From a virus, in IMG/VR virus record IMGVR_UViG_3300043411_001497, positions 1-29,629 of that record: a stretch of 29,629 nucleotides of DNA. The stretch is one strand, 5' to 3'. Positions 9,838 to 28,415 of this stretch are shown here, piece after piece. The notes under the pieces are model-generated. The model saw nothing but the letters and a program-made list of their open reading frames with translations, ran no database searches and was not told the origin of the DNA. Each line of letters starts with the position of its first letter. Within the stretch, counting starts at the first letter, position 1. The position numbers were made by a program, and so were the translations under genes.

Positions 9838-9849
9838 CGGGGGCGACCG

Positions 9850-10764: not shown

Positions 10765-10790
10765 GGGATTGGTTTTTGCGGTTAGAACTG

Positions 10791-11003: not shown

Positions 11004-11026
11004 TTGAAACGGTTTTGCGTGGCCAA

Positions 11027-11503: not shown

Positions 11504-12115
11504 ATGCACTCCGATGAAATGCTGACGGTGGATGATGACGGCCCCGCTTCCGTACCGGCACCCAAACTCACGAAGTCAGGCCAGCCAGACCAACGCTCGG
11601 CCCGCAGCCCGCAGCGTCTCGCGGCGAACAAGAACAACGCCAAAACAGCCGGCATCCCGAAAGGCCTTGAGTTTCCGCACAAGCGCACGCTGATTCACCA
11701 GCAAGAGAAGGCCATTGAAGCAATCGCAACGTCTGTCCTTGAGAAAGGGGAGACCGGCATCCGCAATTCGCCGACCCTCGGCCCAGTGACCGAGAAGGAT
11801 CGCCGCGTTGTCGCTCGCGTGCTCGGCATGCCGGCCGAGGATTTCCAATCCCGCATCGCAACCAAGCTAGAAGAAATCGCCGACAAGGTGGCAGCTCGTA
11901 TGCAGGAGAAACTTGACGCCGACCTGTACAAGCCGGCCGAATTGAACATGGCGCTGGCGATCAGTCTGGACAAGCATGCCGCTGTTTCGGGCAGAAATGC
12001 CCTTAAGGGCGCTTCCGTGAACATTCAGGTCAATAACTACGGGGAAACCAGCAAAGAGGCTCTAATTGCCGAAATTCGCGGCGCAATGGGCATTGCTGAG
12101 GCGGTCAAGGTGTGA
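11504..12115 (+). CDS. hypothetical helical protein, possibly packaging related
   Basis: The 203-residue protein has a disordered basic N-terminus (about residues 1-55), then a helical region with EKAIEAIATSVLEKG and VTEKDRRVVARVLGMPAED. A long amphipathic helix follows (KLEEIADKVAARMQEKLDAD), then LNMALAISLDKHAAVSG and a final SVNIQVNNYGETSKEAL strand-helix. The LAISLDKHAAVSG-type helix followed by a VNIQVNNYG strand faintly recalls some small-terminase-like proteins, but I would not name it. No SD; an alternative start lies five codons downstream. It is transcribed away from the early unit. Confidence 0.62.
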   Translation: MHSDEMLTVDDDGPASVPAPKLTKSGQPDQRSARSPQRLAANKNNAKTAGIPKGLEFPHKRTLIHQQEKAIEAIATSVLEKGETGIRNSPTLGPVTEKDRRVVARVLGMPAEDFQSRIATKLEEIADKVAARMQEKLDADLYKPAELNMALAISLDKHAAVSGRNALKGASVNIQVNNYGETSKEALIAEIRGAMGIAEAVKV

Positions 12116-12269
12116 GACGGACGGCCACTAGTTGAGACTGAGTCTCAAGAAGCGTTATTGAGACTGAGTCGCAGATGGTTTCGCGGACCACCCGCGTTTC
12201 CCGCAGTCCGCCAGCTGCGCAGAATCGTGCAAATTGCACGAAAGCCAGGGCGGAAAGCGTGGTAGTCAT
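12105..12269 (-). CDS. possible small leftward gene, 54 aa
   Basis: The frame begins MTTTLSALAFVQFARFCAAGG and ends TQSQLVAVRLTP. A purine-rich AAAGGGGGGG lies about seven bases before the ATG, a possible SD. Its 3' end overlaps the end of the convergent rightward gene by 11 bases, and its coding region contains both copies of the TTGAGACTGAGTC element. The palindromes may be the real function of this DNA, so coding is uncertain. Confidence 0.33.
   Translation of the reverse strand: MTTTLSALAFVQFARFCAAGGLRETRVVRETICDSVSITLLETQSQLVAVRLTP
12132..12173. repeat. 17-bp palindrome plus degenerate second copy
   Basis: TTGAGACT-G-AGTCTCAA is a perfect 8+1+8 inverted repeat at 12132-12148. TTGAGACTGAGTC recurs at 12158-12170, 26 bp downstream start to start, followed by GCA instead of the matching arm. 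Perfect arms, odd symmetry and a spaced repeat fit an operator for a dimeric protein. Confidence 0.6.
12225..12241. repeat. second 17-bp palindrome
   Basis: TCGTGCAA-A-TTGCACGA is a perfect 8+1+8 inverted repeat with the same geometry as the element at 12132-12148 but a different sequence. It lies in the same gene-poor stretch. It may be a binding site for a different dimeric regulator or a recombinase site. Confidence 0.55.
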
Positions 12270-12629
12270 TGCAAATCCCCCCCTTTCCTGTCCCGATTGC
12301 GTGCCGGTCACTTTGCAACGCCTACTGTGCCATAGGAGAACGCGCCTAGAAGGCGTCAAATTCCGCTTTTACGGGCCGATCTAGGCTTGGTGCGTCCACT
12401 GACCCGCAGTACAGGCCGAAAACGGCAAGGCGTGGCGCAAATCCGGCCGAAAAGCGCCGTCAGCTCGCCAGACGGCACCCACCGGGGGGGGGGATCGGCC
12501 GGGGCGGGGGCACTCGAAGTTCTAATACATTACGGGTGTATTACAAAATTTTGCAGTAGTGTTTTTTTGCATTTTCCAGAAACTACCCACTCATCCAATT
12601 CGGTCACGCATCCTCAAGAAGGTTTGGTC
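12270..12629. other. structured gene-poor region, origin-proximal
   Basis: No convincing gene is visible. The stretch holds a GCCGTC/GACGGC hairpin (12456-12461 with 12471-12476), a run of ten G (12484-12493) and then GGGG and GGGGG blocks. A TAATACA/TGTATTA hairpin (12523-12529 with 12537-12543) and the palindrome CAAAATTTTG (12544-12553) follow. From about 12520 the DNA turns AT-rich. Together with the repeats at 12599-12758 this looks like a control or origin region. Confidence 0.45.
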
Positions 12630-12758
12630 ATGTCACGGAACCAGACAAATTCGGTCATGCGAATTCGATTTTCCCTCCCCGGGAAAAATCGAGCATTCGT
12701 GACCGATTTTGTCACGCGGTCATCAATGACTGAAATTGAAGCATACGTGACCAACATG
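12599..12758. repeat. array of GGTCAYG repeats, candidate replication origin
   Basis: At least five copies of a T-x-GGTCA-(C/T)-G word occur. Forward copies are TTCGGTCACGC at 12599, TTTGGTCATG near 12624 and TTCGGTCATGC near 12650. Inverted copies are CGTGACCGA near 12698 and CGTGACCAA near 12746. Extra GTCAC and GGTCATC half-copies lie between them. The interval is AT-rich and includes a near-perfect hairpin TCGATTTTCCC/GGGAAAAATCGA at about 12665-12692. Iterated sites plus AT-rich DNA near a helicase gene fit an iteron-type origin or a repressor array. A 44-codon frame overlaps it. Confidence 0.5.
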
Positions 12759-12764
12759 ACATGA
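12630..12764 (+). CDS. possible 44-aa peptide overlapping the repeat array
   Basis: The frame begins MSRNQTNSVMRIRFSLPGKN and ends with a helical TEIEAYVTNMT. AGAAGG lies seven bases before the ATG, a reasonable SD, and its stop overlaps a following ATG as ATGA. It coincides with the GGTCAYG array, so part of its sequence is set by those repeats. It may be a genuine small gene, a leader peptide or chance. Confidence 0.38.
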   Translation: MSRNQTNSVMRIRFSLPGKNRAFVTDFVTRSSMTEIEAYVTNMT

Positions 12765-12830
12765 TTAAAATACTAAACCGTTACGAAAGGTGCTTGACTG
12801 CTGGTAAGAGAAACACCACAAAAACCGCGT

Positions 12831-13073
12831 ATGAAAAAAGGTCGTTTCAAAAGGTGTATCTCCAAGATGCCTCCATTAAGGCATTCTTTTCCATACAAGC
12901 CGTTCAGTTTCGCCGAAAGCGAAGTCGTGAAGTGGCTGCTTTCTCAGCCTGAATGCTTGGAGCGGATATTTCAGGAGGCATACGATTCCGACCAGATCGT
13001 GTACGAGAAAGAAAGTGGTCTATGGACCGGCATGGACTTCAACATCGATGGGGAGGTCGTGGTCGATGAATAA
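12831..13073 (+). CDS. hypothetical 80-aa protein upstream of recombinase
   Basis: The protein has a basic N-terminus (MKKGRFKRCISK) and then FSFAESEVVKWLLSQPECLERIFQEAYDSD-type helical sequence and an acidic end (DFNIDGEVVVDE). A shorter start at 12867, preceded by AAGGTG, is possible and would give 68 residues. The recombinase ATG lies inside its last codons, so the two are probably co-translated. TTGACT at 12793-12798 might be a -35 element. No family is recognised. Confidence 0.6.
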   Translation: MKKGRFKRCISKMPPLRHSFPYKPFSFAESEVVKWLLSQPECLERIFQEAYDSDQIVYEKESGLWTGMDFNIDGEVVVDE

Positions 13074-13719
13074 GCCTCCACAGAAAGTCGCAATTTATTG
13101 CCGGGTAAGCACACAGGACCAGTCGTGTGAGGCGCAACTGCTGGAACTCCGGGCGATTGCTGCCCAGCGCGGGCTTGTCGTCGCTCACGAGATTTCTGAT
13201 GTCATCTCAGGATCGAAGTCGTCGCGAGAGGGACTGGACCGTTTGATGGCGATGATTCGCTCGGGCGAGATTGATACCGTGCTGGTTGTGAAGATTGACC
13301 GGCTGGCGCGTTCGCTGGCCCATTTTGCCCAGCTGATTGCGGAGTTCAACGCCCGGCGCGTGGCACTCATTGTGCCCGGTCAGAATATCGACACGTCCGA
13401 GTCGAACCCGGCTTCCAGGTTCATGATCACGGTGCTGGCGGCGGTGGCTGAACTGGAGCGGGACCTGATTAGGGAGCGGACGCGGGCCGGGCTGGCAGTG
13501 GCTCGGGCGAAGGGGAAAGTGCTGGGCCGGCCGTCGCCAAAGATGGTTGGGGTGGACCGGGAGAAGGCTGTCCGGAAGTGGCTGGCGGAGACAGGTGGCG
13601 GAAACTACGCTCGGCTGGGCGAGATGCTCGGCGGCGTCTCGGCGGCTACGGCGTGGCGAGTTGCGCGGAGGGCGGTGCCGGTAGCGCAGGAGGCCGGCAC
13701 TGTCACCGTAGACGACTAG
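13066..13719 (+). CDS. small serine recombinase (resolvase/invertase family)
   Basis: The 217-residue protein has the resolvase catalytic domain: VAIYCRVSTQDQ with nucleophile Ser15, then VISGSKSSREGLDRLM, then VVKIDRLARSLAHF with the conserved Arg residues. The long E-helix is AAVAELERDLIRERTRAGL. A C-terminal helix-turn-helix lies at about residues 170-205. At this length it resembles Tn3/Hin-type resolvases, not large phage integrases, so it may resolve multimers, invert a segment or move an element. GGAGG lies nine bases before the ATG at 13066. Crossover-site candidates are the palindromes in the 12.1-12.7 kb region. Confidence 0.9.
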   Translation: MNKPPQKVAIYCRVSTQDQSCEAQLLELRAIAAQRGLVVAHEISDVISGSKSSREGLDRLMAMIRSGEIDTVLVVKIDRLARSLAHFAQLIAEFNARRVALIVPGQNIDTSESNPASRFMITVLAAVAELERDLIRERTRAGLAVARAKGKVLGRPSPKMVGVDREKAVRKWLAETGGGNYARLGEMLGGVSAATAWRVARRAVPVAQEAGTVTVDD

Positions 13720-15413
13720 TACGCCAGTCGGTAGAGGTGGATGCCGTTCTTGTCGATGACGCGCTCCACCTCTCCATCCTCCACGAATCGCTGCACGAGG
13801 TTAAAGAAGGCGCGGTTCGTTCCCACTGGCACGCTCTGAATGACGGCTTGGTAGATCGGTGACAGCCGCAGGGGTGTGGCGGCGTGCGCCGGGAACGAGG
13901 ATCGGAACTGGTCGATGGTGTACTTGCGGTTGGCTCCGCCGCGCTTGGATTCGGGCTTCTCCTCGGGGGCAGTAGCCTCGCGCTCCTCCCAGAAAATCGC
14001 ACGCATGGGCCGTTTGCGGCCGGGGACGTGGATGGTCTCGCGGGAGTGCTTCAGCGGAATTGAGGTCTGAAGTTCAATGCGCGTATTCAGCCCATCCTCA
14101 ATGCGCTTCTCGATGCCCGCCCGTGTTCCGCGTTTGGCTAGCTCAAGCGTGAACTCGCCCTTCTCTGGCGTGGCCCGTAGTGACATGATAGCCCGCGCCC
14201 AGTTGATGATTTCCGCTCCTCCTGCCATGTCGTACATCACCTCGTGCCACTGGCGGTCGTTGCGGTCTTTTCCGGTTGATGGTTTGGTGGTGTGGTGGAC
14301 GATGAAGTAGCCGAAGGTTGCCGGCTCGTTCAGGGAGTTCAGTCCTTCGCGGAGGAATTTGCCGAGGTCCTGTGAGTCGGTCACGTCGCCGTCGATGAAC
14401 GCCTGGAGTGGATTGAGCCACACGAGGTCGGGCTTGGTGGTACGAATCAGGGAGCGCAGCCGTGCGATGAGGCGCGGCCCGCGCGAGGTGCGGTCAGAGA
14501 CGATGTGTAGGCGCTTCTGGACTGCCAAAATGTCCTCGTCGGTGAGGGCGAGGCAGTGGCGCAGTGATTCCCATACCTCAGCCACGTCGCCGTCGCTGTC
14601 CTCGGACTGGATGATGAGGGATGTCAGCGGTCCGTTCGGTCGGATGCCAAATGCAGGACGGCCCAGCGCCCACAGGACGGCCATCTGAAGCGATAGCGAT
14701 GACTTGCCCATGCCGGAGGTGGATGAAAGCACGGCACCATCGCCTCGGTTCAAGTAGCGGTCGCCAAGTAGAACGGATGGGTCGCCGTCCGGAGGAACGG
14801 AAAAGTCGGTCAGGGAGCGGGTCGGTGAAGTTACGTCCCTGCCAATCGTGGAAATTTTGAACGATGATTCCGAAATGACGGAATTTATTTCCTCGGTGGC
14901 ATCCCGTGCGCGCGCCGAGATTTCGTTGGCCACCGCCATCAGTGCACGTCTGATCTCAAGGTCTCTGACTGTCCGAATGAAGTAGCTGGCCTGCGCCGTT
15001 GTAGGGATGCGCTGCGAAATCTGGGTCAGCATCGGAACTCCGCCGACGTAGAACAGTTTCCCGACGCGGGTAAGTTCCTCGGCCACTACACCGATGTCCG
15101 TTGGCTCGCCCCGACGGTGAAGGTCGATGACCACGCCAAGAATGCAGGCGAGTTTCGGGTCGGAAAGTGATGCGGATGTGATGCCAGACGTGAGAACAGA
15201 CGGAATAACCGCAGGACCATCCATCATGCAGCAGGCGATCAACTGCTCCTCTGCATTTGAAGAAGAGGGCGCATCGGCGCGGGGGGCTGGGGTTTGGGGT
15301 GGGGTCGGCTTTCTTACACCATTCACCGGAATTGCCGTCTCAAACGACTCCACTGCCGGCATCATCGGTTTGGATACATCATCATCCCAGTCCACTGTCA
15401 GCGCGTCGGTCAT
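13716..15413 (-). CDS. replicative helicase: DnaB N-domain plus RepA-type ATPase
   Basis: The 565-residue protein has a disordered N-terminus, then a DnaB N-terminal-like domain (about 54-175: EEQLIACCMMD, GVPMLTQISQRIPT). A RecA-fold ATPase follows, with Walker A SSTSGMGKSS at 230-239, a Walker B-like strand DLVWLNPLQ at 329-337, and HHTTKP at 373-378. The core resembles AAA_25/RepA hexameric helicases. The C-terminus (about 490-565) looks like a winged helix. Such proteins unwind origin DNA. The Walker B strand has Asn where Asp is usual. The start overlaps the preceding stop as ATGA. Its stop shares CTAG with the convergent recombinase stop. Confidence 0.87.
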   Translation of the reverse strand: MTDALTVDWDDDVSKPMMPAVESFETAIPVNGVRKPTPPQTPAPRADAPSSSNAEEQLIACCMMDGPAVIPSVLTSGITSASLSDPKLACILGVVIDLHRRGEPTDIGVVAEELTRVGKLFYVGGVPMLTQISQRIPTTAQASYFIRTVRDLEIRRALMAVANEISARARDATEEINSVISESSFKISTIGRDVTSPTRSLTDFSVPPDGDPSVLLGDRYLNRGDGAVLSSTSGMGKSSLSLQMAVLWALGRPAFGIRPNGPLTSLIIQSEDSDGDVAEVWESLRHCLALTDEDILAVQKRLHIVSDRTSRGPRLIARLRSLIRTTKPDLVWLNPLQAFIDGDVTDSQDLGKFLREGLNSLNEPATFGYFIVHHTTKPSTGKDRNDRQWHEVMYDMAGGAEIINWARAIMSLRATPEKGEFTLELAKRGTRAGIEKRIEDGLNTRIELQTSIPLKHSRETIHVPGRKRPMRAIFWEEREATAPEEKPESKRGGANRKYTIDQFRSSFPAHAATPLRLSPIYQAVIQSVPVGTNRAFFNLVQRFVEDGEVERVIDKNGIHLYRLAY

Positions 15414-15658
15414 GAGCGGTAGCGCCTGTAGCGTTCAACGCAGGAGTCGCGGTGCGCTTGTTGAGCTGGCGTCAGTGGGCCGATGAAGAAGCGGTCGCCG
15501 GGCCGGTGCGACTTGTGCCGGTACGTCTGATAGCGCCAGCGGCGGTTGTAGTCGGCATGGTAGCCGGGGTGTTCGGCGCGCCACTTCTTCAGGTACTCGC
15601 GCATGTACTCGGCGCGGGGGTCGGCGGGACTGGCGGGGTCGGCGGGGGTAATGCTCAT
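15410..15658 (-). CDS. small basic protein, 82 aa
   Basis: The protein has a Pro/Ala/Asp N-terminus, then RAEYMREYLKKWRAEHPGYH, a pattern typical of small phage proteins with repeated EYxREY/KRW helices, followed by an Arg/Tyr-rich region ending VERYRRYRS. It is strongly basic and may bind nucleic acid. It is coupled on both sides by ATGA, to the methyltransferase upstream and the helicase downstream, so a replication-linked role is plausible but unproven. Confidence 0.65.
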   Translation of the reverse strand: MSITPADPASPADPRAEYMREYLKKWRAEHPGYHADYNRRWRYQTYRHKSHRPGDRFFIGPLTPAQQAHRDSCVERYRRYRS

Positions 15659-16410
15659 AGGTCGTCGATGACCAACATTTCAGGTTGCGTGGACTGGATG
15701 CGCTCAGTCGCGATTTTGAAATACTCCGGGTCGCGTTCTATGCCGATGAAGCGTCGGTTGGACTTCACGCACGCAACGCCGGTCGTTCCGCTGCCCATGG
15801 TATTATCAAGGACCACCTCGCCCTCGTTGGTGTACGTGCGGATCAGGTACTCCATTAGGGCGACTGGTTTTTGGGTGGGGTGGAGGCCGGTCTCGCGCGG
15901 AAATCGCAGCACGCTTTGCGGGTAACGCTCACCACTGTTTTCTGTGTCTGTGCGCTGCTTTATAGCGCCATAGCAATCGCCACTGTCATCCTTTCCAGAC
16001 CGCTTAACCTTGTACGGCTTTCCGGCCGACATTTGCGGATTGTACGTCGCTTTCTCCTGTGCGAACAAAATCACATTCTCATGAATCTGGAGGTGCTGTT
16101 TCTTGGCGTTCAGAAAGTTGGACGCACAATTCTTCTCCCATACCAGCGTCTGCCTCCACGCCTCCATATTTGAGCTAACCAATACGGACGAGAATGGGTC
16201 CGCCGCCGTCAGCACAATCGCCGCGCTCGGCTTGCACACGCGCCGATACGCCGCCCAAAGCGGCTCCAGCGGTATCACTGAATCCCACTTGTTCTGCGTC
16301 GTGCCGTAAGGTAAATCGCACATCACCATATCCACGGAACCGTCTGGAATTTCCTTCATGCGCTCAAGGCAGTTGCCGAGCAGAAGGGAGTAGCGCGGAT
16401 CGTCGCTCAT
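15655..16410 (-). CDS. DNA N6-adenine (or N4-cytosine) methyltransferase
   Basis: The 251-residue enzyme has amino-methyltransferase motifs in the beta order. Motif IV DLPYG is at 32-36. HPTQKPVALMEYLI follows near residue 185, then the SAM-binding motif LDNTMGSGTTGVACV and the RRFIGIERD strand. It would transfer a methyl group from SAM to adenine N6, or less likely cytosine N4, protecting DNA or regulating it. No partner restriction gene is seen, so it appears to be an orphan. The start at 16410 is set by GGAGG nine bases upstream and an ATGA overlap; longer frames from 16419 or 16449 are less likely. Confidence 0.88.
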   Translation of the reverse strand: MSDDPRYSLLLGNCLERMKEIPDGSVDMVMCDLPYGTTQNKWDSVIPLEPLWAAYRRVCKPSAAIVLTAADPFSSVLVSSNMEAWRQTLVWEKNCASNFLNAKKQHLQIHENVILFAQEKATYNPQMSAGKPYKVKRSGKDDSGDCYGAIKQRTDTENSGERYPQSVLRFPRETGLHPTQKPVALMEYLIRTYTNEGEVVLDNTMGSGTTGVACVKSNRRFIGIERDPEYFKIATERIQSTQPEMLVIDDL

Positions 16411-16555
16411 TGTCCCCATCCTCCCAGCTTCCGCAGCACCGACCGGCACCAGAAGAACAAGCGGGGTTTGTCGGTATGGAAGGCGTACTCCGATATGGAC
16501 CGTACGACCACGATGGCGCGGAGGCGGAGGCAGTGGGGGAGGATAAGCGGAAGCA
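16407..16555 (-). CDS. 49-aa basic peptide between ATP-grasp and methyltransferase
   Basis: The frame begins MLPLILPHCLRLRAIVVVRS and ends CRSVLRKLGGWGQ. It fills the gap between the ATP-grasp stop (16561) and the methyltransferase start, and its stop overlaps that start as ATGA. It is hydrophobic at the N-terminus and basic throughout, with a conserved-looking RSISEYAFHTDKPRLFFWCR centre. The position next to a predicted peptide-ligating ATP-grasp makes it a candidate partner or substrate, but that is conjecture. Confidence 0.5.
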
Positions 16556-16560
16556 TGGGG

Positions 16561-17217
16561 TTAGGAGCTGCTGAGGTTCTGCCATCCAGCCACGAGCCAG
16601 TTGGCGTAGGTTTCGTACTCGGATAACGGCCCGTACCAGCCGCACGCAAAAGCCGGGTGGCACTCGATAAGCGCAAGCTGCCCATCGCTGAACGTGCCGA
16701 AGTCAGCCGTGCCGTAAAATGTATCCGGGAATGGGATGCTGAGTTCCGGAGCATCGGGCGTGTTCACGTCGTCGCCCCAGTACCATTTGCCAGCCACAAT
16801 CTGGCCGGCTGTAATGTAGTAGCGCCATTCGTTGGTGAATTTAACGACTTCCGAGCAGACAAATGGGCCTTTCTTTTTGCCCTTGTAGGTGCCGCTCGTG
16901 ACAAAGCCTGTAAACCGCTTGTGCTGGTCGGCGGGCTTGATGAAGCACTTTCTTAGCGGCCATTTTGACGTGTGCCACGTCGTGCGCTTCACCCAGCCAT
17001 TTAGGAATCCAGGGAAGTAGTCGGGGACAACCGTACGGCCAAGCACCGACTCAACCCACGGGACAGTTCCCGATGGCATCCATCCGGCCGGAACGTCCTT
17101 GGCCTTTCGGAACTGACGGTACGGCACCTTGTACGCGTTGCACCACAGCGCGAGCGTACTTGTCTCGTGGTCGTTGCTTCCGATGTGGAAGGCGATTCCT
17201 GCTGGTGGCGGTTTCAT
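16561..17217 (-). CDS. R2K-type ATP-grasp domain protein (DUF4343-like)
   Basis: The 218-residue protein has the order expected of the CDC123/R2K ATP-grasp clade. FIKPADQHKRFTGFV is at 92-106 (nucleotide-binding Lys), EVVKFTNEWRYYI at 123-135 (the E-W-R strand) and TADFGTFSDGQLALIE at 170-185. ECHPAFACGWYG follows, ending in the G-x-YG typical of the group. ATP-grasp enzymes form amide bonds through acyl phosphates; the phage R2K members are predicted peptide or protein modifiers with unknown targets. ATG 17217 is chosen over a GTG at 17271. No SD. The clade assignment is by motif pattern from memory. Confidence 0.66.
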   Translation of the reverse strand: MKPPPAGIAFHIGSNDHETSTLALWCNAYKVPYRQFRKAKDVPAGWMPSGTVPWVESVLGRTVVPDYFPGFLNGWVKRTTWHTSKWPLRKCFIKPADQHKRFTGFVTSGTYKGKKKGPFVCSEVVKFTNEWRYYITAGQIVAGKWYWGDDVNTPDAPELSIPFPDTFYGTADFGTFSDGQLALIECHPAFACGWYGPLSEYETYANWLVAGWQNLSSS

Positions 17218-17538
17218 GTTGAAATTGTTGCCGCGCACCCGAGCACGAAAGAAAGTTCCCCCTTCATCCACCTACGGCATAGCCGTGGCTGGTGAAGCAG
17301 TTTTCGTCTCGGATGCGCGGCGTGAGGTCTGGAGACCCCAAGTGAAGAGTCGGAAGCGGAGTGAAAGGACGGGGAAACGTCGGCGCTGTTCAGGTGTCTG
17401 AAAAATGTTCCGCTTCTGCAAGCAAAATCAGAAAATCCCCACCATGGTATTTGGGGGGGGCAATGACGCTTCACGCCGTGGCCATTATCAGCTTTACCAA
17501 GTTTCGTAATTAATTTATGGAAAACCGCACATACTTCG
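17218..17538. promoter_or_regulatory. divergent intergenic region with short hairpins
   Basis: No credible gene. On the plus strand it holds ACGGC-ATA-GCCGT (around 17273-17285), GGTCT-GG-AGACC (around 17326-17337), an A/G-rich stretch, a run of eight G (17453-17460), and AT-rich DNA near 17500-17515. It separates the leftward ATP-grasp unit from the rightward structural genes, so it should carry promoters both ways. The stems could belong to a leader RNA. No consensus promoter is clear. Confidence 0.4.
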
Positions 17539-17730
17539 ATGGGCGAATTCGGCAAAGCATACGAAAAAGTAGAACCGGAAAAGAAGCGCGTTAAAATGGG
17601 CGGATCGCCCACCGGACTTTTTGTGCCTGCTCGTCCAAGAACGGATTTATATTCAACATATTTTCGGCCGGATGGTATCTCTTCTTTTTTTCGCCCTGAT
17701 GGAGCTTCCGTCTACGTGCGGCCCGAATAA
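17539..17730 (+). CDS. small protein with tandem FRPDG repeats
   Basis: The 63-residue product has a charged N-terminus (YEKVEPEKKRVK) and a C-terminus made of nine-residue repeats: YFRPDGISS (41-49), FFRPDGASV (50-58) and a partial YVRPE (59-63). It precedes a tail-fibre-like gene by 12 bases, so it is probably a virion-associated or scaffold-type peptide. The start is uncertain: an in-frame ATG at 17596 with AAGAAG nine bases upstream would give a 44-residue protein, leaving room for a 25-codon ORF beginning at 17514-17517. No family is recognised. Confidence 0.55.
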   Translation: MGEFGKAYEKVEPEKKRVKMGGSPTGLFVPARPRTDLYSTYFRPDGISSFFRPDGASVYVRPE

Positions 17731-17742
17731 CATGACATCACC

Positions 17743-18450
17743 ATGGCCAATTTAGTCGTCTCCACTGCGGTTGATACGATGATGCAGGCCAGTAATGCTG
17801 CCGGCATTGCCACGGCTGCGGGAGTGGGCACCGGCGACAGCCCGACGTTCACTGCTGCGACGTTGAGCGGCGGCACGCTGACGGGCGGGGCTGCTGGGCT
17901 GACGATGGCGGCGGGCGGGACGAATCAGAATATCACGCTTACGCCGAGTGGGACGGGGGCTGTTAAGATTGCTGCGGGCATCGTCACAAACGTGGGTTTG
18001 ATATTGGGCAACACAACTGACGGGTGGTATTCGCCGGCTGCTGGTCAATTTACTTGGGCTTCAGCCAACAATGCCTTTTTCAATTTTATATCGTCTCAAT
18101 TTCGTCTGGCATCGGGTGCGTCGCTGCGGTGGTCCGACAATACGAGCGTCATCGCAGGCAGCATAGACACCGGCCTCGCCCGCGTCGGCCCCGCCGAAAT
18201 CGAAGCGAACACGGGCACGGCAGGGGTTAAGGGTGACATTTCGCTACGCAACCTGAAGCCAACGGGCGGTAACGGCAACGCCGTTGTCACAGTGGGCACG
18301 CTTCCAACTACAGCGGCGACCGGGCGCTACACTGGCGCTGGCTTCACAGTGACGGACGCCCTTACACCCGTTCAGGGGTCGGCTGTCACGGGCGGTGGTG
18401 GTGTCTTTACGGATGTGCGCTGGGATTCTGCTGCGTGGATCGTAATGTAA
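17743..18450 (+). CDS. tail-fibre-like structural protein
   Basis: The 235-residue product is rich in Gly, Thr, Ala, Ser and Asn. Its segments, such as SPTFTAATLSGGTLTGGAAG and NQNITLTPSGTGAVKI, are typical of beta-rich fibre and appendage proteins in phages. The LTPSGTGAVKI phrase recurs widely in tail-fibre or collagen-like phage proteins. The C-terminus (GGGGVFTDVRWDSAAWIVM) may be a short capping domain. There is no SD before the ATG (ACATGACATCACC). It is co-directional with the FRPDG peptide and the next gene, forming a small structural cluster. Confidence 0.66.
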   Translation: MANLVVSTAVDTMMQASNAAGIATAAGVGTGDSPTFTAATLSGGTLTGGAAGLTMAAGGTNQNITLTPSGTGAVKIAAGIVTNVGLILGNTTDGWYSPAAGQFTWASANNAFFNFISSQFRLASGASLRWSDNTSVIAGSIDTGLARVGPAEIEANTGTAGVKGDISLRNLKPTGGNGNAVVTVGTLPTTAATGRYTGAGFTVTDALTPVQGSAVTGGGGVFTDVRWDSAAWIVM

Positions 18451-18468
18451 CTTTAACGACAAACTAAA

Positions 18469-18843
18469 ATGGCCATTCTCAATCGAATCGTAATTCAGAT
18501 GGACGATGCGGGCACGGGCATCCTCGGCATCTCTCGTCAGGACCGAGACGGAAAACCGATGCCGCTAACCGGCACTGCATTTGCCGCACTGTTTCCCGGT
18601 CTGAACGCCGCCGCACTGGATACGATTGATGCCAAAAATAATGAACTTTCAGTGGCGCTCTCCGCCCACGATCAGATCGAAAGCCTGCTCGCCGACGCCG
18701 CACCCGAAGACGCCAAGGCCGCTGCGATTCTAGAAAAGGTTCGCGAGGGCAAGCAGTCGGCCAACGACAAGGAGCTTCAGGCGGCACTTGCCCGTAAGGC
18801 CGAGATCGAGGCGCTGATCGATAAGCTCAGCGGCGGCAAATAA
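18469..18843 (+). CDS. helical protein downstream of the fibre-like gene
   Basis: The 124-residue protein starts with a beta strand MAILNRIVIQMDDAG, then GISRQDRDGKPMPLTG, and has a mostly helical Ala-rich C-terminal half (ELSVALSAHDQIES, EDAKAAAILEKVREG). The position suggests a fibre accessory or chaperone-like protein, but no motif shows that. The leader ACGACAAACTAAA lacks an SD. It ends one base before the stop of a convergent small membrane gene. Confidence 0.62.
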   Translation: MAILNRIVIQMDDAGTGILGISRQDRDGKPMPLTGTAFAALFPGLNAAALDTIDAKNNELSVALSAHDQIESLLADAAPEDAKAAAILEKVREGKQSANDKELQAALARKAEIEALIDKLSGGK

Positions 18844-18936
18844 TCAATCGTCCTTCGGCAGCACGGCCATCAGCCGGCAGAATGCGGCGGTGGCGAGAAG
18901 GGAGAGGGCGAGGTAGGTTAGGAGGTAGGGGAGCAT
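18844..18936 (-). CDS. tiny membrane peptide, 30 aa
   Basis: The 30-residue frame MLPYLLTYLALSLLATAAF plus a short tail (CRLMAVLPKDD) is nearly all one hydrophobic helix. It follows the methyltransferase-like gene by two bases and ends directly against the convergent rightward gene. Its membrane pattern supports coding, but the length is minimal and there is no SD. Similar tiny membrane frames are at 4383-4499 and 26028-26192. Confidence 0.4.
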   Translation of the reverse strand: MLPYLLTYLALSLLATAAFCRLMAVLPKDD

Positions 18937-18938
18937 AA

Positions 18939-19564
18939 TTATGCGGAGACGGTGAGCATGGACTGTCCGCCCCACTGCGCTGCCATCGCATCGGCAATTC
19001 CTTGGAACGTACGACTGCGCTCGTGCGCGCGATTCTCGCCTGGAGCCATATTCCATATGCGCTGTTCGCGGCCTGCGACTATATTTGTCGGCTGAAGCGG
19101 CGGAAGGTTTTTTAGCCATAGCCACGTTGTCTTTTGCTCACCATGTCCGAACTGCCACGGGTGAATGACCTGCGATTTAGGGGCGACGAGCGTGCTTGCC
19201 ATCGACATTGGGTTCTCAAGGCAGATGCGTTCAATGGGCGCATTCCACAGTGCGCGAAAGAATGTGACGGCTTCATCGCGTGCCGCGCGCTTCTTAGACC
19301 CATCATGCCAGCGGTCGCCTTTCTTGCGCCGAACCCAGTGGTCGGTAAGCCAGCGAGCGCCAGACAGCGAAAGATGTGTGCATGGTGGGTGGGGCCGATC
19401 AGCAGGTCCCATCCGTGGTCGAGAATGGTCAGCGCGTCGCCTGTGATGTGGTGCTCGCTGCCGTCCTCTGCTGGAAGGATGTCACATGACCACGCATCAT
19501 GACCAAGTGCACGAAATGCCCAGCGAACGGTGCCGCTGAACTCGCAAGCCACAAGCACTCTCAC
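18939..19564 (-). pseudogene. C5-cytosine methyltransferase-like gene split by a frameshift
   Basis: The N-terminal frame (from a GTG at 19564) encodes the SAM-binding start VLVACEFSGTVRWAFRALGH followed by DAWSCDILPAEDG and LTILDHGWDLLIG. The C-terminal frame supplies PHPPCTHLSLSGARWL with the catalytic Pro-Cys, then CLENPMSMAST (ENP) and the end TFQGIADAMAAQWGG. Together they match a familiar phage cytosine-methyltransferase-like family of about 200 residues. The two halves are in different frames and meet at a C-run (GGCCCCACCC on the coding strand) near 19385-19400. This may be a real disruption, a programmed -1 shift, or a sequencing indel. Confidence 0.72.
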
Positions 19565-22664: not shown

Positions 22665-22736
22665 CCTACACTCCGTACACCGCAGTCAACAACAAAACTA
22701 GCTTGACTACCAAATAAAATGAAATAACTTCGCGCC
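22665..22736. promoter_or_regulatory. divergent promoter region with inverted TTGACT pair
   Basis: AGTCAA (22684-22689) and TTGACT (22703-22708) form an inverted pair 13 bases apart, so each strand carries a TTGACT -35-like box pointing outward. Rightward, TAACTT lies 16 bases downstream; leftward, TAGGAT lies about 15 bases downstream and overlaps the ATG at 22664. The -10 boxes are weak. The inverted repeat could equally be an operator for the adjacent Xre protein. Confidence 0.45.
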
Positions 22737-22952
22737 ATGGTAAAACAACAGCCACTCCTGAAGGAGAAAAAGCGCATCGGCGCGGAGATTAAGAAGCGCC
22801 GACTTGAGCGCGAGTTTGACCGCAAGGACTTGGCCTCTGCCGTTGGCGTGACCGTTGGCATGATCGGGCACATCGAGCGCGGGCTTTACTGGCCAAGCAT
22901 GCCGGTCTACATTCTCATTTGCCGCGTGCTGGGGATGGAGGAGCCGAAGTAA
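22737..22952 (+). CDS. Xre-family helix-turn-helix regulator
   Basis: The 71-residue protein has a helix-turn-helix of the Cro/C1 type: IGAEIKKRRLEREFDRKDLA leads to the turn and recognition helix AVGVTVGMIGHIERG, then PSMPVYILICRVLGM. It is a single-domain repressor or Cro-like protein. It is divergent from the exported-protein gene and directly upstream of SSB, so it may control both units. The inverted TTGACT pair just before it is an operator candidate. There is no SD in its leader. Confidence 0.82.
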   Translation: MVKQQPLLKEKKRIGAEIKKRRLEREFDRKDLASAVGVTVGMIGHIERGLYWPSMPVYILICRVLGMEEPK

Positions 22953-24003: not shown

Positions 24004-24061
24004 AAATGGCGACTATGTGGCGGAAGATTGTAAAAGTGCTGTGGGGAAACGCTGTTTTCGT

Positions 24062-24370
24062 TCACCGCTCTACGGTTTCGAGCATTTCGCCCACGGCCAG
24101 AGATATGCCGTCCGGGTCGGCGTTGAAGTCGTAGCCCGAGTGAACGCGGATGTTGAGCCGGGCCAGCAACGATTCGACCGCGATCAATCGCAGCTCGGTC
24201 TTGTCGAGCCGGTCAGCCGCGTCACGCAGCCCAAGGATTTCGCGCTTCTCCTCACGCTCACTCTCCGCGTCGAAATAGCCGAGCGCGTGAACCATTTCCT
24301 CTTTGTCGTCAGCCATGGCACGAAGCCACGCGGGGCCGCCGAGCGGCAGTTTTGTGATGTCGGTTGGCAT
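24062..24370 (-). CDS. hypothetical helical 102-aa protein
   Basis: The protein begins MPTDITKLPLGGPAWLRAMA and has a charged helix (AESEREEKREILGLRDAADR) continuing into LRLIAVESLLARLNIRVHSG. A C-terminal acidic helix follows. It is acidic, soluble and probably partly coiled. The start is preceded by TGAACGAACACC, the junction motif, in which TGA is the stop of the gene at 24380-24523. No family is recognised. Confidence 0.62.
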   Translation of the reverse strand: MPTDITKLPLGGPAWLRAMADDKEEMVHALGYFDAESEREEKREILGLRDAADRLDKTELRLIAVESLLARLNIRVHSGYDFNADPDGISLAVGEMLETVER

Positions 24371-24382
24371 GGTGTTCGTTCA
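24371..24382 (-). promoter_or_regulatory. TGAACGAA junction motif
   Basis: The minus strand reads TGA-ACGAACACC-ATG. The TGA ends the 47-aa gene and the ATG begins the 102-aa gene. There is no SD. It is one of several such junctions in this cluster. Confidence 0.5.
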
Positions 24383-24523
24383 CCGCCGCAGCCGCGTCAC
24401 GCGACTGTAGGCGAGGTCGTACAGGTTGATTTCAGACTTGGTGCAGCCCTTGGCGCGAAGCCGGGCCATTTCAGCGCGCACGAGCGGGCCGAGGTTGCGG
24501 GTGTAAGTTTCTCCGGTTGGCAT
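24380..24523 (-). CDS. small helical protein, 47 aa
   Basis: The 47-residue frame begins MPTGETYTRNLGPLVRAEMA and ends YDLAYSRVTRLRR. It is a basic helical peptide. The leader GAACGAAAGACGACCC is nearly the same as that of the gene starting at position 6. The stop TGA is the first codon of the next TGAACGAA junction. Both neighbours fit exactly, which supports a real gene. No family is recognised. Confidence 0.55.
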   Translation of the reverse strand: MPTGETYTRNLGPLVRAEMARLRAKGCTKSEINLYDLAYSRVTRLRR

Positions 24524-24544
24524 GGGTCGTCTTTCGTTCTGTCA
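24524..24544 (-). promoter_or_regulatory. GAACGAAAGACGACCC leader
   Basis: On the minus strand the stop TGA of the zinc-site gene is followed by CAGAACGAAAGACGACCC and the ATG at 24523. The same GAACGAAAGACGACC(C) occurs before the gene at the left edge of the window. Confidence 0.5.
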
Positions 24545-24754
24545 GGTTTTGATGGGCCAGAATTTCATGTAGTGGCCGGGACACATGCAGTGCCGTCGGC
24601 GCTCTACCTCGTGGTGCTTCTCCCACACCATTTCGGCGAGATGGTCGGGGGCTATCGGAAACCGCACTTGGATCGTGCCAGTGCCGGCGCATTCGGGACA
24701 TTGCCATGCGAACGGCATTTCAGACGGGATGCTTGTGTCGGTTGGGGCGTCCAT
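24542..24754 (-). CDS. DnaJ-like zinc-finger small protein
   Basis: The 70-residue protein contains WQCPECAGTGTIQV and a second Cys site in RHCMCPGHYM. CxxCxGxG is the DnaJ-type zinc knuckle seen in many small phage proteins. Here the second half is CxC followed by PGH, so it is a variant. GAGGAG lies eight bases before the ATG, a proper SD, although the leader also contains AACGAATC. It probably binds zinc; its partner is unknown. Confidence 0.68.
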   Translation of the reverse strand: MDAPTDTSIPSEMPFAWQCPECAGTGTIQVRFPIAPDHLAEMVWEKHHEVERRRHCMCPGHYMKFWPIKT

Positions 24755-24766
24755 GATTCGTTCTCC

Positions 24767-25015
24767 TCAGTATTTGCCCAGCCGGTAGCCGAGCCCGGTC
24801 AGGATTGAGTTGTAGGCCCGCACGGTGACTTTATAATCACCCTCATCGAACACGCGGGAAAGGACGGCCATGACCTGCCGTCGCGTCATTCTCTTCCGCT
24901 TCAATCGCGCAAGCTCGTGCTCCATCTTCTCGCAAAGCTTGCGCAGCGCGTACGCCCGTCTAACCGGGTCGTCCACACTACAAAATACCGCATCGGTGCG
25001 TGGGGTGTTGCTCAT
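24767..25015 (-). CDS. PRTDA-type helical phage protein
   Basis: The 82-residue protein begins MSNTPRTDAVFCSVDDPVRR, the PRTD opening common in short phage proteins, then has a helical MEHELARLKRKRMTRRQVM and a C-terminal helix-turn with YNSILTGLGYRLGKY. The start ATG at 25015 is preceded by TGAACGAAAGATT, in which TGA is the upstream stop. The C-terminal RRQVMAVLSRVFDEG may be helix-turn-helix-like. Function unknown. Confidence 0.65.
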   Translation of the reverse strand: MSNTPRTDAVFCSVDDPVRRAYALRKLCEKMEHELARLKRKRMTRRQVMAVLSRVFDEGDYKVTVRAYNSILTGLGYRLGKY

Positions 25016-25028
25016 AATCTTTCGTTCA
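25016..25028 (-). promoter_or_regulatory. TGAACGAAAGATT junction motif
   Basis: The minus strand reads TGA-ACGAAAGATT-ATG. The TGA is the stop of the gene at 25026-25316 and the ATG starts the gene ending at 25015. Identical copies occur at 25317-25329 and 26455-26467. Confidence 0.6.
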
Positions 25029-25316
25029 CTCGATTCCGAGTGCTTGTTTCATTTCGAGGGCAGCGAGCGCACGTTGCGCACCTTCGGCCTCGTGCGGACA
25101 CGCTTTCAGGAGTTTCAATCCGGCCTCGCGCAGCTTGGCGTTCTCGGCATCGGCCGCACGCAGCCGGCGAGCCGCCTCCCGCGTCAGTCCGGCCGCCTGT
25201 ATCGGGGTGCAGCCAAAGTTCACTGGACTCAGCGGCATCCGGTTGAGCGCGAGAACAAGCTCGTCGGTGCTCAGTTTTTCCGGCGCTTCAAATGCGTTGG
25301 GGTGTATCGGTGCCAT
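25026..25316 (-). CDS. hypothetical 96-aa protein
   Basis: The start at 25316 is set by the TGAACGAAAGATT leader; the longer frame to 25340 runs into the upstream gene. The protein begins MAPIHPNAFEAPEKLSTDEL, continues with VNFGCTPIQAAGLTREAARR, and has a helical C-terminal half rich in Ala, Glu and Arg (LRAADAENAKLREAGLKLL), probably a coiled coil. It is soluble, with no metal motif. Function unknown. Confidence 0.65.
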   Translation of the reverse strand: MAPIHPNAFEAPEKLSTDELVLALNRMPLSPVNFGCTPIQAAGLTREAARRLRAADAENAKLREAGLKLLKACPHEAEGAQRALAALEMKQALGIE

Positions 25317-25329
25317 AATCTTTCGTTCA
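25317..25329 (-). promoter_or_regulatory. TGAACGAAAGATT junction motif
   Basis: The minus strand reads TGA-ACGAAAGATT-ATG, joining the stop of the coiled-coil gene at 25327-25581 to the next start. It is base-for-base the same as the junction at 25016-25028. Confidence 0.6.
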
Positions 25330-25581
25330 GGCATCGCCACACATGCGGCTGAGTTTGATTTTCAGTTGCTCGTTTTCGCGCTTCAGCCGGTCGATCTCAC
25401 GGCGCATTTCGGCTTCGTGGTTCTCCATCGGGTTCGTCAGGAAGTGGTCGGGGTCTATTGGCCCGACGGCGCGATGGGTCGCGATGGCTTCGTCAATGGC
25501 CGCAAACTCTGTCTCTCTGCGGCCTTTCAATTCAGCCGAAGCAGCGCGTAGTTCCGACAGCTTTTGCTCGTGGGTTTTCAT
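25327..25581 (-). CDS. coiled-coil protein, 84 aa
   Basis: The protein begins MKTHEQKLSELRAASAELKG, has a short interruption (VGPIDPDHFLTNP), and a second coiled coil (MRREIDRLKRENEQLKIKL). It resembles short helical phage proteins that form dimers or trimers. The leader CGACGAAAGCCCG contains ACGAAAG, a relaxed form of the junction motif. Function unknown. Confidence 0.62.
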   Translation of the reverse strand: MKTHEQKLSELRAASAELKGRRETEFAAIDEAIATHRAVGPIDPDHFLTNPMENHEAEMRREIDRLKRENEQLKIKLSRMCGDA

Positions 25582-25595
25582 CGGGCTTTCGTCGA

Positions 25596-25805
25596 TTAGG
25601 TTTTTGCGTATCTGAAGCGGGCAAAATCAATGGCGTCTCGCGCTGTCGCGTACTCCGTTGTGCGAGGCGGGTGGGACCGGAAATCAATCAGCAACCACTT
25701 GCCATCGTCGGCCCGGCTCACGTCGATGTTCAATTCAAGCAGCGCATCTAGGCGCTCCTTGTCGCGCAACAACTCGGCGCACTGGTGTCCTTCGTAGGTG
25801 ATCAT
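25596..25805 (-). CDS. hypothetical 69-aa alpha/beta protein
   Basis: The protein begins MITYEGHQCAELLRDKERLD and has strands around LNIDVSRADDGKWLLIDFRS, ending with TTEYATARDAIDFARFRYA. It lies one base after the stop of the upstream zinc-finger gene. The pattern is that of a small alpha/beta fold with no obvious catalytic residues. Function unknown. Confidence 0.6.
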   Translation of the reverse strand: MITYEGHQCAELLRDKERLDALLELNIDVSRADDGKWLLIDFRSHPPRTTEYATARDAIDFARFRYAKT

Positions 25806-25806
25806 G

Positions 25807-26007
25807 TCAGCGATGCTTGCCGGTTCCGTTGCAGGCCCGGCAGGTGATGAGGTGATTGATTTCGCTGGGGCAATCCTCGCCCCAATCGCTTCCGTCCCCG
25901 TCGTTGTATTCGATCATGCCGTCGCCGCCGCAGCGGTCGCACACGCCAAAATCCGGGTCGGCTTCGAGCATTTGCTGCTCCTCTTCGGGGGTTGGTTTCG
26001 GGTCCAT
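25807..26007 (-). CDS. DnaJ-type zinc-finger small protein
   Basis: The start at 26007 is preferred to a longer frame to 26148 that overlaps the upstream membrane gene. The 66-residue acidic protein has two CxxCxGxG knuckles, CDRCGGDG and CRACNGTG, separated by an acidic loop, as in DnaJ-like zinc domains. The leader GAACGAATAGGCGATCT contains the AACGAA word. Zinc binding is likely; a chaperone role is not implied, because the J domain is absent. Confidence 0.75.
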   Translation of the reverse strand: MDPKPTPEEEQQMLEADPDFGVCDRCGGDGMIEYNDGDGSDWGEDCPSEINHLITCRACNGTGKHR

Positions 26008-26027
26008 AGATCGCCTATTCGTTCGGG

Positions 26028-26192
26028 TTAGCGGTGGGTGGTATCGAAGATGGCCCAGCTCACGGCCACGATGCTGGCAACAATCAGCGCGAACCAGATT
26101 TCCCGGCCGTCTGGATTTCCGATCAGGTAGCCGATTCGGACCGCGCACATGGCCAGTACGGGAAGGGCGAAGCGTTTGCCGTAGATGCTCAT
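26028..26192 (-). CDS. two-span small membrane protein, 54 aa
   Basis: The product begins MSIYGKRFALPVLAMCAVRI, has a short loop (GNPDGREI), and a second span (WFALIVASIVAVSWAIF), ending DTTHR. Both spans are typical inner-membrane helices. The ATG at 26192 is preceded by TGAACGA, where TGA is the stop of the gene at 26197-26454. No family is recognised. Confidence 0.58.
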   Translation of the reverse strand: MSIYGKRFALPVLAMCAVRIGYLIGNPDGREIWFALIVASIVAVSWAIFDTTHR

Positions 26193-26199
26193 TCGTTCA
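26193..26199 (-). promoter_or_regulatory. short TGAACGA junction
   Basis: The minus strand reads TGA-ACGA-ATG, the shortest form of the junction motif, leaving only four bases between stop and start. Confidence 0.45.
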
Positions 26200-26454
26200 G
26201 TCGTAGATCAGGGATTCAAGCAGCACCTCAACCGGACCATCGACAATGAAGGTCCAGTCATTGGCCCAGCCTTCTACCCGGTCTTCCGCTTGCACAGGGC
26301 GACATGGAGAGACGCACGGTTTGAAGCCGTCGTCTGGGTCGCCCCAGTACGCGAGTGCTTCCAGTATTGCCTCGTCCTTGGTTGCGTGCGGCCCATTCCA
26401 GTGCTCTGAGTCGGGGTGGTTAGCAAAAGCCCACTGCTGCGGTTCGGTACTCAT
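26197..26454 (-). CDS. hypothetical 85-aa protein
   Basis: The protein begins MSTEPQQWAFANHPDSEHWN and contains GPHATKDEAILEALAYWGDP, then CVSPCRPVQAEDRVEGWAND and an acidic end (VDGPVEVLLESLIYD). It has paired Cys in CVSPC. The overall look, with EALAYWG and a DG-rich C-terminus, is that of a small alpha/beta phage protein. The start is preceded by TGAACGAAAGATT. Function unknown. Confidence 0.65.
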   Translation of the reverse strand: MSTEPQQWAFANHPDSEHWNGPHATKDEAILEALAYWGDPDDGFKPCVSPCRPVQAEDRVEGWANDWTFIVDGPVEVLLESLIYD

Positions 26455-26467
26455 AATCTTTCGTTCA
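26455..26467 (-). promoter_or_regulatory. TGAACGAAAGATT junction motif
   Basis: The minus strand reads TGA-ACGAAAGATT-ATG, linking the stop of the gene at 26465-26911 to the next start. It is identical to the junctions at 25016-25028 and 25317-25329. Confidence 0.6.
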
Positions 26468-26911
26468 GCAAACCCGATAAATCGGATCGCCCTCCATTTT
26501 TTCGAGTTTAACCGACACGCGAGCGCCGACTTTCCAAGGGCGCACGCCGGTATTCCACATGGAGGCGATGCGGTTGTTGGCGAGGCGGATGACCACGAGG
26601 CGTTTGTTGACGCACTTGCGGATGATTTCGCCGGTGGTGCGCAGGGGCCAGCCGGAGGGCGACGTATCGGGCGCTGCGGGTTCTTCCGGTGTCGGTGCTT
26701 CGTCCACAGTGATCATTTCCGCTGGGGCCGGCGTAATCGCATCCTGGAGCGACTTTGGAAACGGCAACGTGTCGCCACGCTTTGAAATCCAATACTTCTT
26801 CGCCTTCTCAATCTCGCCCCAGCCCACGAGCAAGTTTACGTGGTTCGTCTGCTGCTCAAGTTTGAGCTGCGCCATGACTTCGGGTGTGCGTTCGGGTTTG
26901 GTGGGTGGCAT
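26465..26911 (-). CDS. hypothetical 148-aa protein
   Basis: The protein has a helical N-terminus (TPEVMAQLKLEQQTNHVNLL), then EIEKAKKYWISKRGDTLPFP, an acidic Pro-rich linker, and a beta-rich C-terminal domain with RLVVIRLANNRIASMWNTGV and ARVSVKLEKMEGDPIYRV. The C-terminal part could be a small SH3- or OB-like fold. Its stop is part of the next TGAACGAAAGATT junction. Function unknown. Confidence 0.65.
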   Translation of the reverse strand: MPPTKPERTPEVMAQLKLEQQTNHVNLLVGWGEIEKAKKYWISKRGDTLPFPKSLQDAITPAPAEMITVDEAPTPEEPAAPDTSPSGWPLRTTGEIIRKCVNKRLVVIRLANNRIASMWNTGVRPWKVGARVSVKLEKMEGDPIYRVC

Positions 26912-27186: not shown

Positions 27187-28020
27187 TTACCCCTCCTCCG
27201 CCATAGGCAGCACCATCGGAGCGCCGGGGGTGAATCCGACCATTTCTGGGGTGATGGGGTAGGCGACGTGGCCGACGTGCGGAATCACGGGCAGGCCAAG
27301 GTCGATGTAGATTTTCATGCCGGCGCGGCGAACGAGGTCAGAAAAGTAGTAGTCCTCGCCTTTTAGGGTGCCTGCGGGGTGTGCCTCAGAAATGGCCAAC
27401 TGTATGTCCGCAATCATGTCTGAGTCCGGATAGTCTACGATGCTTTGTGTTTTGCTGCGCAGTAAAATATCACGCACAGCATCCAATCTCGCCTCCGCCG
27501 TCCTCGGCCCAGTAACGCCCATTGGAAACCAGTTGCAACGCGTGACCACCGCCTCATCCGGCTTATCCTGCGCCAGAAACTCCAGCTCAGGAAACGCGGC
27601 CCGCATTTTCGTGAGCGCGGAAACCTTGATAGATATGAGCCCCGTGGCCACGCGCACGCATTCGAGCATGCCATTTGCCTGCACCGTTGCGCCTTTCAGC
27701 GGCACGAAAAGGTAGTTCGGCTTTCCCGGCCGGCGCTTGCAGTACGGACCAGCCACCACGTCAACGTCGTGCGAAATGATGCGCAGGAAGTTTTCGGGCG
27801 TGTAGAGATTGTCATCGTCGGCCATGACGACTTTATCGAAGCCGCCGCGTTCAGCCTCGAATGCGATGTCATTTCGGGCGAAAGAAATGCAGCCTGTGTC
27901 GGAAACCATGTAATCCAGATGGACGCCGGGTAGTTTTGCCGTCAGCATTCCGCAGAGCGTGCGGATATAGTTGGAATCTGCGCCGGATGCGCTGAGGGGA
28001 GTGGCGAGGAGGACTTTCAT
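27187..28020 (-). CDS. GT-A-type glycosyltransferase
   Basis: The 277-residue protein begins MKVLLATPLSASGADSNYIR and continues ISFARNDIAFEAERG, then the acidic DxD site VVMADDDNLYTPENFL (aspartates 68-70). Further features are VDVVAGPYCKRRPGKPNYLF and, near the C-terminus, GEDYYFSDLVRRAGMKIYID, a familiar GEDxxF acceptor-side motif. Such enzymes transfer sugars from nucleotide donors, in phages often to phage DNA or host surface polymers; the target is unknown here. The start at 28020 overlaps the upstream stop as ATGA. A longer frame to 28158 is a shadow inside the upstream gene. Confidence 0.82.
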   Translation of the reverse strand: MKVLLATPLSASGADSNYIRTLCGMLTAKLPGVHLDYMVSDTGCISFARNDIAFEAERGGFDKVVMADDDNLYTPENFLRIISHDVDVVAGPYCKRRPGKPNYLFVPLKGATVQANGMLECVRVATGLISIKVSALTKMRAAFPELEFLAQDKPDEAVVTRCNWFPMGVTGPRTAEARLDAVRDILLRSKTQSIVDYPDSDMIADIQLAISEAHPAGTLKGEDYYFSDLVRRAGMKIYIDLGLPVIPHVGHVAYPITPEMVGFTPGAPMVLPMAEEG

Positions 28021-28415
28021 GCTTTCATCTCCGGCAGTTTCTTGTCGTCGGCGGTCCATGGGTCTTCGGTGGAGTTCATGAGGGCCATGGCGCGGCAGTA
28101 GAGGTATTTCAGGAGAGCCATTTCCATTTTGAATGAGTTGGCTCCGCAAAGATGGCACTCGTGGCGCTCAACGTGGGAGCAGCCATCCCATTTGATGTAG
28201 CCTTCGGCGTAAATCTCGGCATCCGCTACAGACGGCACCAAATCCATCGAGTCCGGCTGGTCCTTGCGCCGAAACACCGGACCATCGTCGTCGTGGGACG
28301 CAAGTGCATAAACTTTGAAATCGCACCAGTGAGGCAAATACTCCCACACTACCCGAAACCCAAACATGCCGCCAACGTCCTCGGTGAGCGTTTTCTTTTC
28401 TGGTTCTGTGGTCAT
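28017..28415 (-). CDS. hypothetical protein with possible zinc site
   Basis: The 132-residue protein has a beta-rich N-terminal half (FGFRVVWEYLPHWCDFKVYA) and YIKWDGCSHVERHECHLCG, where Cys and His residues lie close together as in a zinc site. A helical end follows (ALLKYLYCRAMALMNS). Gly/Asp-rich loops separate these. It is coupled to the glycosyltransferase by ATGA and to the Arc-like gene upstream by ATGA, so all three are likely expressed together. Function unknown. Confidence 0.65.
   Translation of the reverse strand: MTTEPEKKTLTEDVGGMFGFRVVWEYLPHWCDFKVYALASHDDDGPVFRRKDQPDSMDLVPSVADAEIYAEGYIKWDGCSHVERHECHLCGANSFKMEMALLKYLYCRAMALMNSTEDPWTADDKKLPEMKA

Follow-up and report, generated by a model that had tools for sequence, protein, structure and literature searches.

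What starts translation at the successive genes of a phage array, if the sequence that recurs in front of them has no Shine-Dalgarno (SD) character? The question is raised by IMG/VR virus record IMGVR_UViG_3300043411_001497, a complete contig of 29,629 nt with 58% GC which is referred to as the window. In an array of small genes on its minus strand the short core GAACGAA recurs between the stop codon of one gene and the start codon of the next, and an earlier note had described this as a junction element acting in place of SD-driven starts. The element has a defined position and a single orientation, is confined to the array and the left edge of the contig, is free of SD character and lies in leaders of low predicted structure; leaders are also repeated in related phages, with other words. 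We give about an even chance to the explanation that GAACGAA is a lineage-specific, SD-free start-associated sequence. Duplication of leaders would have spread it within an accessory array, where it would persist as an initiation leader that is rich in A and weakly structured.

Position and form of the junction element

With gene starts called by a simple codon-usage script and by eye, GAACGAA was detected at ten of the 11 gene junctions on the minus strand between 24,003 and 26,467 (Table 1), one copy being the variant CGACGAA. At nine junctions the core lies no more than 10 nt from the ATG (distances of -1 to 10 nt, counted from its last base), and the gaps at the motif junctions measure 4, 9, 10, 10, 10, 12, 14, 18, 20 and 58 nt. 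The junction at 25805 is without the motif and, with a gap of 1 nt, has no room for it; the motif is present at every block junction that has room for it, a statement which is independent of how the copies were found.

Three junctions share the 16-nt sequence TGAACGAAAGATTATG without any difference, as the earlier note had claimed, and the shorter forms (26193-26199 and 24371-24382) and related leaders (24524-24544 and 26008-26024) that it listed could all be read again on the minus strand, as could the two copies near the left edge. To this list three junction copies have to be added (24769-24752, 25598-25579 and the copy after the stop at 24064). The TGA of TGAACGAA, previously taken to be the true stop of the upstream gene in five cases, is the stop of the upstream open reading frame (ORF) in seven of eight copies, the exception being the copy at 25-18. 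What is supported is a recurrent start-associated element that lacks SD character and sits at true stop/start junctions; pairing with the 16S rRNA tail does not explain it.

TGAACGAA occurs eight times, always on the minus strand, against 1.0 expected from shuffled sequences and a shuffle maximum of 4, and 11 of the 13 GAACGAA of the contig belong to block junctions or to the left edge (the remaining two are located at 10674 on the plus and at 13816 on the minus strand). ACGAA is found in the leaders of nine of the 11 block starts and of none of the 38 other minus-strand starts of the contig. When the leader set was slid 20,000 times, the observed count was reached in 0.035% of the shifts, a figure that includes the near-zero shifts by which this count is recreated. 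When starts were called automatically and coding windows served as background, six of 37 leaders contained AACGAA compared to 0.27 expected (p = 3e-7). All 12-mers that occur three times in the window derive from the junction element; since six of 60 simulated sequences also reached a multiplicity of three, it is not the three-fold 12-mer by itself but its position that is decisive.

The junction geometry bears directly on the proposal that the motif acts as a termination-reinitiation signal, whereby a terminating ribosome would read the TGA together with a short spacer and restart at the next ATG. A pure signal of this kind fits poorly because gaps range from 4 to 20 nt and some stops are TAA: the core also occurs after TAA and where the gap measures 14, 18 or 20 nt, and it is missing from the sole block junction with a 1-nt gap. 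In reporter tests hardly any coupling was left at a distance of about 20 nt, and coupled genes usually had overlaps of -4 and -1 nt (PMC10666635), which likewise counts against it. Despite the frequent use of the TGA as true stop and the many gaps of 9-12 nt, which speak in its favour, we consider this reading improbable.

Table 1. Junction elements, repeated leaders and the small-gene array of the window
Feature	Position	Strand	Genes and gap	Remarks
Junction TGA-ACGAAAGATT-ATG	26452-26467	minus	stop of 26465-26911 (148 aa), start of 26197-26454 (85 aa), gap 10 nt	copy 1 of 3 identical
Junction TGA-ACGA-ATG	26190-26199	minus	stop of 26197-26454, start of 26028-26192, gap 4 nt	core overlaps start codon
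Junction TAA-CCCGAACGAATAGGCGATCT-ATG	26005-26030	minus	stop of 26028-26192, start of 25807-26007, gap 20 nt	whole form TAACCCGAACGAATAGGCGATCT-ATG (26030-26005); core 10 nt before ATG
Junction TGA-C-ATG	25803-25809	minus	gap 1 nt	sole block junction without motif
Junction TAA-TCGACGAAAGCCCG-ATG	25579-25598	minus	gap 14 nt	whole form TAATCGACGAAAGCCCG-ATG (25598-25579); variant core CGACGAA
Junction TGA-ACGAAAGATT-ATG	25314-25329	minus		copy 2
Junction TGA-ACGAAAGATT-ATG	25013-25028	minus		copy 3
Junction TGA-GGAGAACGAATC-ATG	24752-24769	minus		whole form TGAGGAGAACGAATC-ATG (24769-24752); sole block leader with SD-like GGAG
Junction TGA-CAGAACGAAAGACGACCC-ATG	24521-24544	minus		whole form TGACAGAACGAAAGACGACCC-ATG (24544-24521)
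Junction TGA-ACGAACACC-ATG	24368-24382	minus		whole form TGAACGAACACC-ATG (24382-24368)
TGAACGAA directly after stop	24057-24064	minus	stop of 24062-24370; 58-nt junction	53 nt to next called start (24003)
Two cores at left edge of contig	18-63	minus		cores at 18-25 and 56-63, flanking 10-codon degenerate frame ATGCGCAGCTATTAAGCGAAACTTAAGAACTGA (MRSY*AKLKN*)
Second repeated leader TAACACCCCAAACACCCCAATCAT-ATG	10114-10141	minus	gene 9850-10116	
Second repeated leader CTAACACCCCAAACACCCCTAATCAC-ATG	10521-10549	minus	gene 10284-10523	
Array of small co-directional ORFs with motif	24062-26454	minus	ORFs of 47-102 aa	only weak PHROG hits of unknown function

Shine-Dalgarno content, structure and composition of the leaders

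The view that the motif stands in place of SD holds with respect to its lack of SD character, but a local replacement is unsupported because few leaders anywhere in the contig have SD and because most relatives show it at about the background rate. SD tetramers occur in 22% of the window leaders compared to 11% of coding windows. In nine related viral contigs 0-17% of the leaders contain them, the coding background there being 10-16%. In most of these contigs the leaders are enriched in A and depleted in G, and AGGAG is absent from the block leaders. The mean minimum free energy predicted for 40 nt around the starts is -4.3 in the block; at the other starts it is -5.5, and at positions drawn at random from that strand -7.9.

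It is extremely unlikely that the element represents an ordinary SD sequence read by an unusual host anti-SD. AAAG could pair with 16S rRNA tails ending in CCUUUCU, and the mean duplex energy with such a tail is -6.1 for the block against a random value of -4.6, but the other leaders of the contig, which are free of the motif, score equally (-6.0), and with two 16S tails, which may not be those of the host, the block pairs no better than the other contig starts. TTCGTT, TCGTTC and TTCGTTC (UUCGUU being the complement of the core) are absent from the 16S rRNA of E. coli, which again may not be that of the host, and the spacing between core and ATG is not fixed.

SD-scarce bacteria are known, some Verrucomicrobiota among them (PMC10783764), and a host of this type would fit the leaders described here. 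One relative, the Sulfuritalea metagenome-assembled genome (MAG) contig L028, contains SD in 44% of its leaders and is the sole relative with a clearly raised rate; as a proxy for the host it was set aside since this rate is unlike that of the other relatives. Judging from L028, the use of SD within this family of phages may depend on the host.

Repeated leaders in the window and in related phages

A megablast search of INPHARED with the window revealed no close relative, and IMG/VR scans with the genes at 26465, 27187 and 470 matched no relative. The helicase yielded 20 distant relatives in IMG/VR (39-55% identical) and also matched one bacterial MAG contig; the 15 contigs found first are covered by the enrichment count. 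In these, TGAACGAA occurs 22 times compared to 19 reversed-pattern controls and is thus not enriched. For the exact word this is the outcome that the earlier note had named as a refutation, and a signal common to related phages is unsupported; the relatives carry different repeated leaders. GAACGAA is absent from the leaders of ten relative loci that were checked singly, and whole-contig counts of AACGAA..ATG showed no enrichment in the relatives. The small-gene block of G014 possesses several AACGAAA..ATG sites of its own, a resemblance judged by eye.

An exact scan of IMG/VR for TGAACGAAAGATTATG gave nine contigs with one copy of the 16-mer each, and in only one of them does an upstream ORF of appreciable length (64 aa) end at the TGA, followed by an 11-codon frame. 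Scans of IMG/VR for GAACGAAAGACGACCC and TAACACCCCAAACACCCC matched only contigs without homologs of window genes. All of these exact-word matches were read as chance. As far as can be judged from the sequences compared, GAACGAA as an exact word is private to this phage and the phenomenon of repeated leaders is not.

The window itself contains a second leader pair, TAACACCCCAAACACCCC..ATGGACACA, at the starts 10116 and 10523 (window positions 10096-10141 and 10503-10552), whose similarity extends into the first codons (ATGGACACA..GCACAGACG; MDTQAQT and MDTKAQT). Three relatives (G006, G014 and L023) have repeated leaders of their own, frequently extending into the first codons as well. The best syntenic relative, G006 (L018), which matches the window genes 27187, 26465, 22046, 21373, 19561, the helicase, 13015, 11276, 7869 and 7651, repeats CTGTCCGCTCTAA..ATGCAAACC at two starts. 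G014 has the leader pairs ACAAAACCAAAAAxCCAACG..ATG and TTAGxCTxCCGATTTTATGACC, and in its locus L031 a 106-nt duplication (13154-13259 and 15171-15276, 94% identical) spans the leader, the ATG and the first codons of small genes. In L023 a near-identical 35-nt leader, ccagtcgccgcgaaaaccattaactcaaaaca(a/g)cc, precedes two ATG on the minus strand (strand offsets 3165 and 3485). A test for shared 11-mers in leaders was discarded, its control being inflated by random sampling, and the scoring of start-window pairs was used in its place: seven of 12,623 within-genome pairs, spread over the window, G014 and G006, score at least 16, compared to none of 13,008 coding-window pairs.

Such repeats might alternatively be non-functional recombination linkers, that is, footprints of the duplication, swap and deletion of small genes by a RecT-type process, which are merely tolerated as leaders. 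We regard this as rather unlikely. The phage does encode a RecT/exonuclease pair, the words vary among phages and among blocks, and the repeats often cross the start codon into the coding sequence, as in the pair 10116/10523, at 24370/24523 (ATGCCAACCG), at 10024/10335 of G006 and in the 106-nt copy of G014; furthermore, the degenerate frame that the two left-edge cores enclose resembles what is left of a gene. However, the three 16-nt copies have nothing obvious in common before the TGA, and the proteins encoded behind them are unrelated; the core is kept while its distance to the ATG varies, which neutral copying alone would not predict, this latter comparison being partly circular.

Repeats of other types were also seen in these contigs. 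In L031 (G014) the region 9504-19191 contains intergenic repeats of type CGCTCGGGGCCGTTGGCTCTGGCGCGTGGTT in 5-6 diverged copies, and in L018 (2496-4735) a relative of the window gene 27187-28158 is present in two diverged copies on both sides of the homolog of the 26465 gene. Short words occur 20-24 times in L022 (G010; CTCCGACTGCTCCG-type) and in L005 (TTCACGATGGAG-type).

Gene content of the window and a possible role at the DNA level

The phage genes of the window, most of which are carried by the minus strand, encode RecT, an exonuclease, a DnaB-type helicase, an N4/N6 methyltransferase, a serine resolvase and an HTH_3 protein. For the array ORFs no confident family match was obtained beyond the weak PHROG hits, and no homologs of the ORFs at 24062-26454 were found in the syntenic relative L018; the array is therefore regarded as accessory. 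The window contains no known RNAs (0 Rfam families, 0 tRNA), and in the region promoters are not in excess and terminator-like sites remain at shuffle level. The HTH_3 regulator (22737-22952) and the serine resolvase (13015-13719) are both encoded on the plus strand, which is the minority strand, and based on these two genes the phage may be temperate.

A possibly temperate phage with an HTH_3 protein and a resolvase brings to mind a DNA-level site, in which case GAACGAA would be an asymmetric, operator- or stoperator-like target of a phage repressor. The stoperators of Cluster A mycobacteriophages are indeed asymmetric, intergenic and of one orientation (PMC3029335), as are the copies described here. 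In contrast to GAACGAA, however, they comprise 13 bp, occur genome-wide and are bound by the immunity repressor, whereas the core comprises 7 bp, is restricted to a single block of genes and the edge of the contig and does not occur in the putative control region (22665-22736) that separates the HTH gene from the divergent gene beside it, where the repressor's own operators would be expected. A role of this kind thus seems very unlikely.

Comparison with known start-associated sequences

The closest kind of known element is represented by the Start-Associated Sequences (SAS) of Cluster K mycobacteriophages (Pope et al. 2011, PMC3203893; PMC12699233). Both SAS and GAACGAA are short asymmetric repeats a few nt 5' of the starts of non-structural genes, in one orientation and mostly before ATG, the stop of the upstream gene sometimes lies inside, and both are rare outside their own lineage. 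The placement at the nine junctions, all on the minus strand in a region of RecT/helicase and small genes, is of the SAS type. SAS are 13-bp sequences (GGGATAGGAGCCC) with the SD core AGGAG, present in 11-19 copies per genome, conserved across subclusters and often accompanied by upstream imperfect inverted repeats of 17 bp (ESAS), and their function is also unproven (PMC3203893; PMC12699233). GAACGAA differs in that its core measures 7 nt, is SD-free and belongs to a single phage and, within it, to a single array. We do not classify it as SAS because two features of these fail: the core does not correspond to the consensus with AGGAG, and it is not conserved among the relatives examined.

The conserved boundary (linker) sequences of mosaic phages, as far as the concept is cited in PMC3029335, resemble the element as short shared boundary sequences that could serve recombination; GAACGAA, however, repeats within one genome at successive junctions and not between phages at module borders. 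The SD-independent A-rich leaders of Bacteroidota and of SD-scarce Verrucomicrobiota (PMC10783764) have low SD use and A enrichment before the ATG in common with those described here, but they reflect a compositional preference rather than repeated words.

Origin and possible function of the element

Several points weigh against an SD-free initiation leader spread by duplication. Since the SD rate of the window leaders is twice the coding rate, some window genes may use SD, and the SD-poor host is deduced from the leaders themselves. The exact word is not enriched in the relatives, so that the comparison gives no proof of selection on GAACGAA. The core has two mismatches in 84 positions compared to 31 in 60 for the next five bases, a comparison which is partly circular and biased because all copies but one were located via the core.

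Taking these points into account, we still prefer the SD-free leader. Its core would sit between stop and start, with the upstream TGA often supplying its GA. During gene turnover, duplication or recombination would have carried the leader from one junction to the next, as appears to happen in the relatives with leaders of their own. The element may have been retained as an open purine/A-rich landing site for the 30S subunit at the usual SD position, in the context of an SD-poor host or phage, and at shorter gaps some coupling to the translation of the preceding gene may contribute.

With low probability, GAACGAA could instead be an SD-independent initiation element that a protein of the phage or a factor of the host recognises in trans and that coordinates the translation of the array, the relatives each having evolved their own word. 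If this were true, the array would be marked for coordinated translation, with a separate word in each related phage.

SD-independent initiation is poorly understood, and a phage family that re-copies SD-free leaders would provide a natural set of candidate minimal initiation leaders, which could reveal how new small phage genes gain working start sites. If copying alone were responsible, the repeated leaders would still illustrate the construction of accessory gene arrays.

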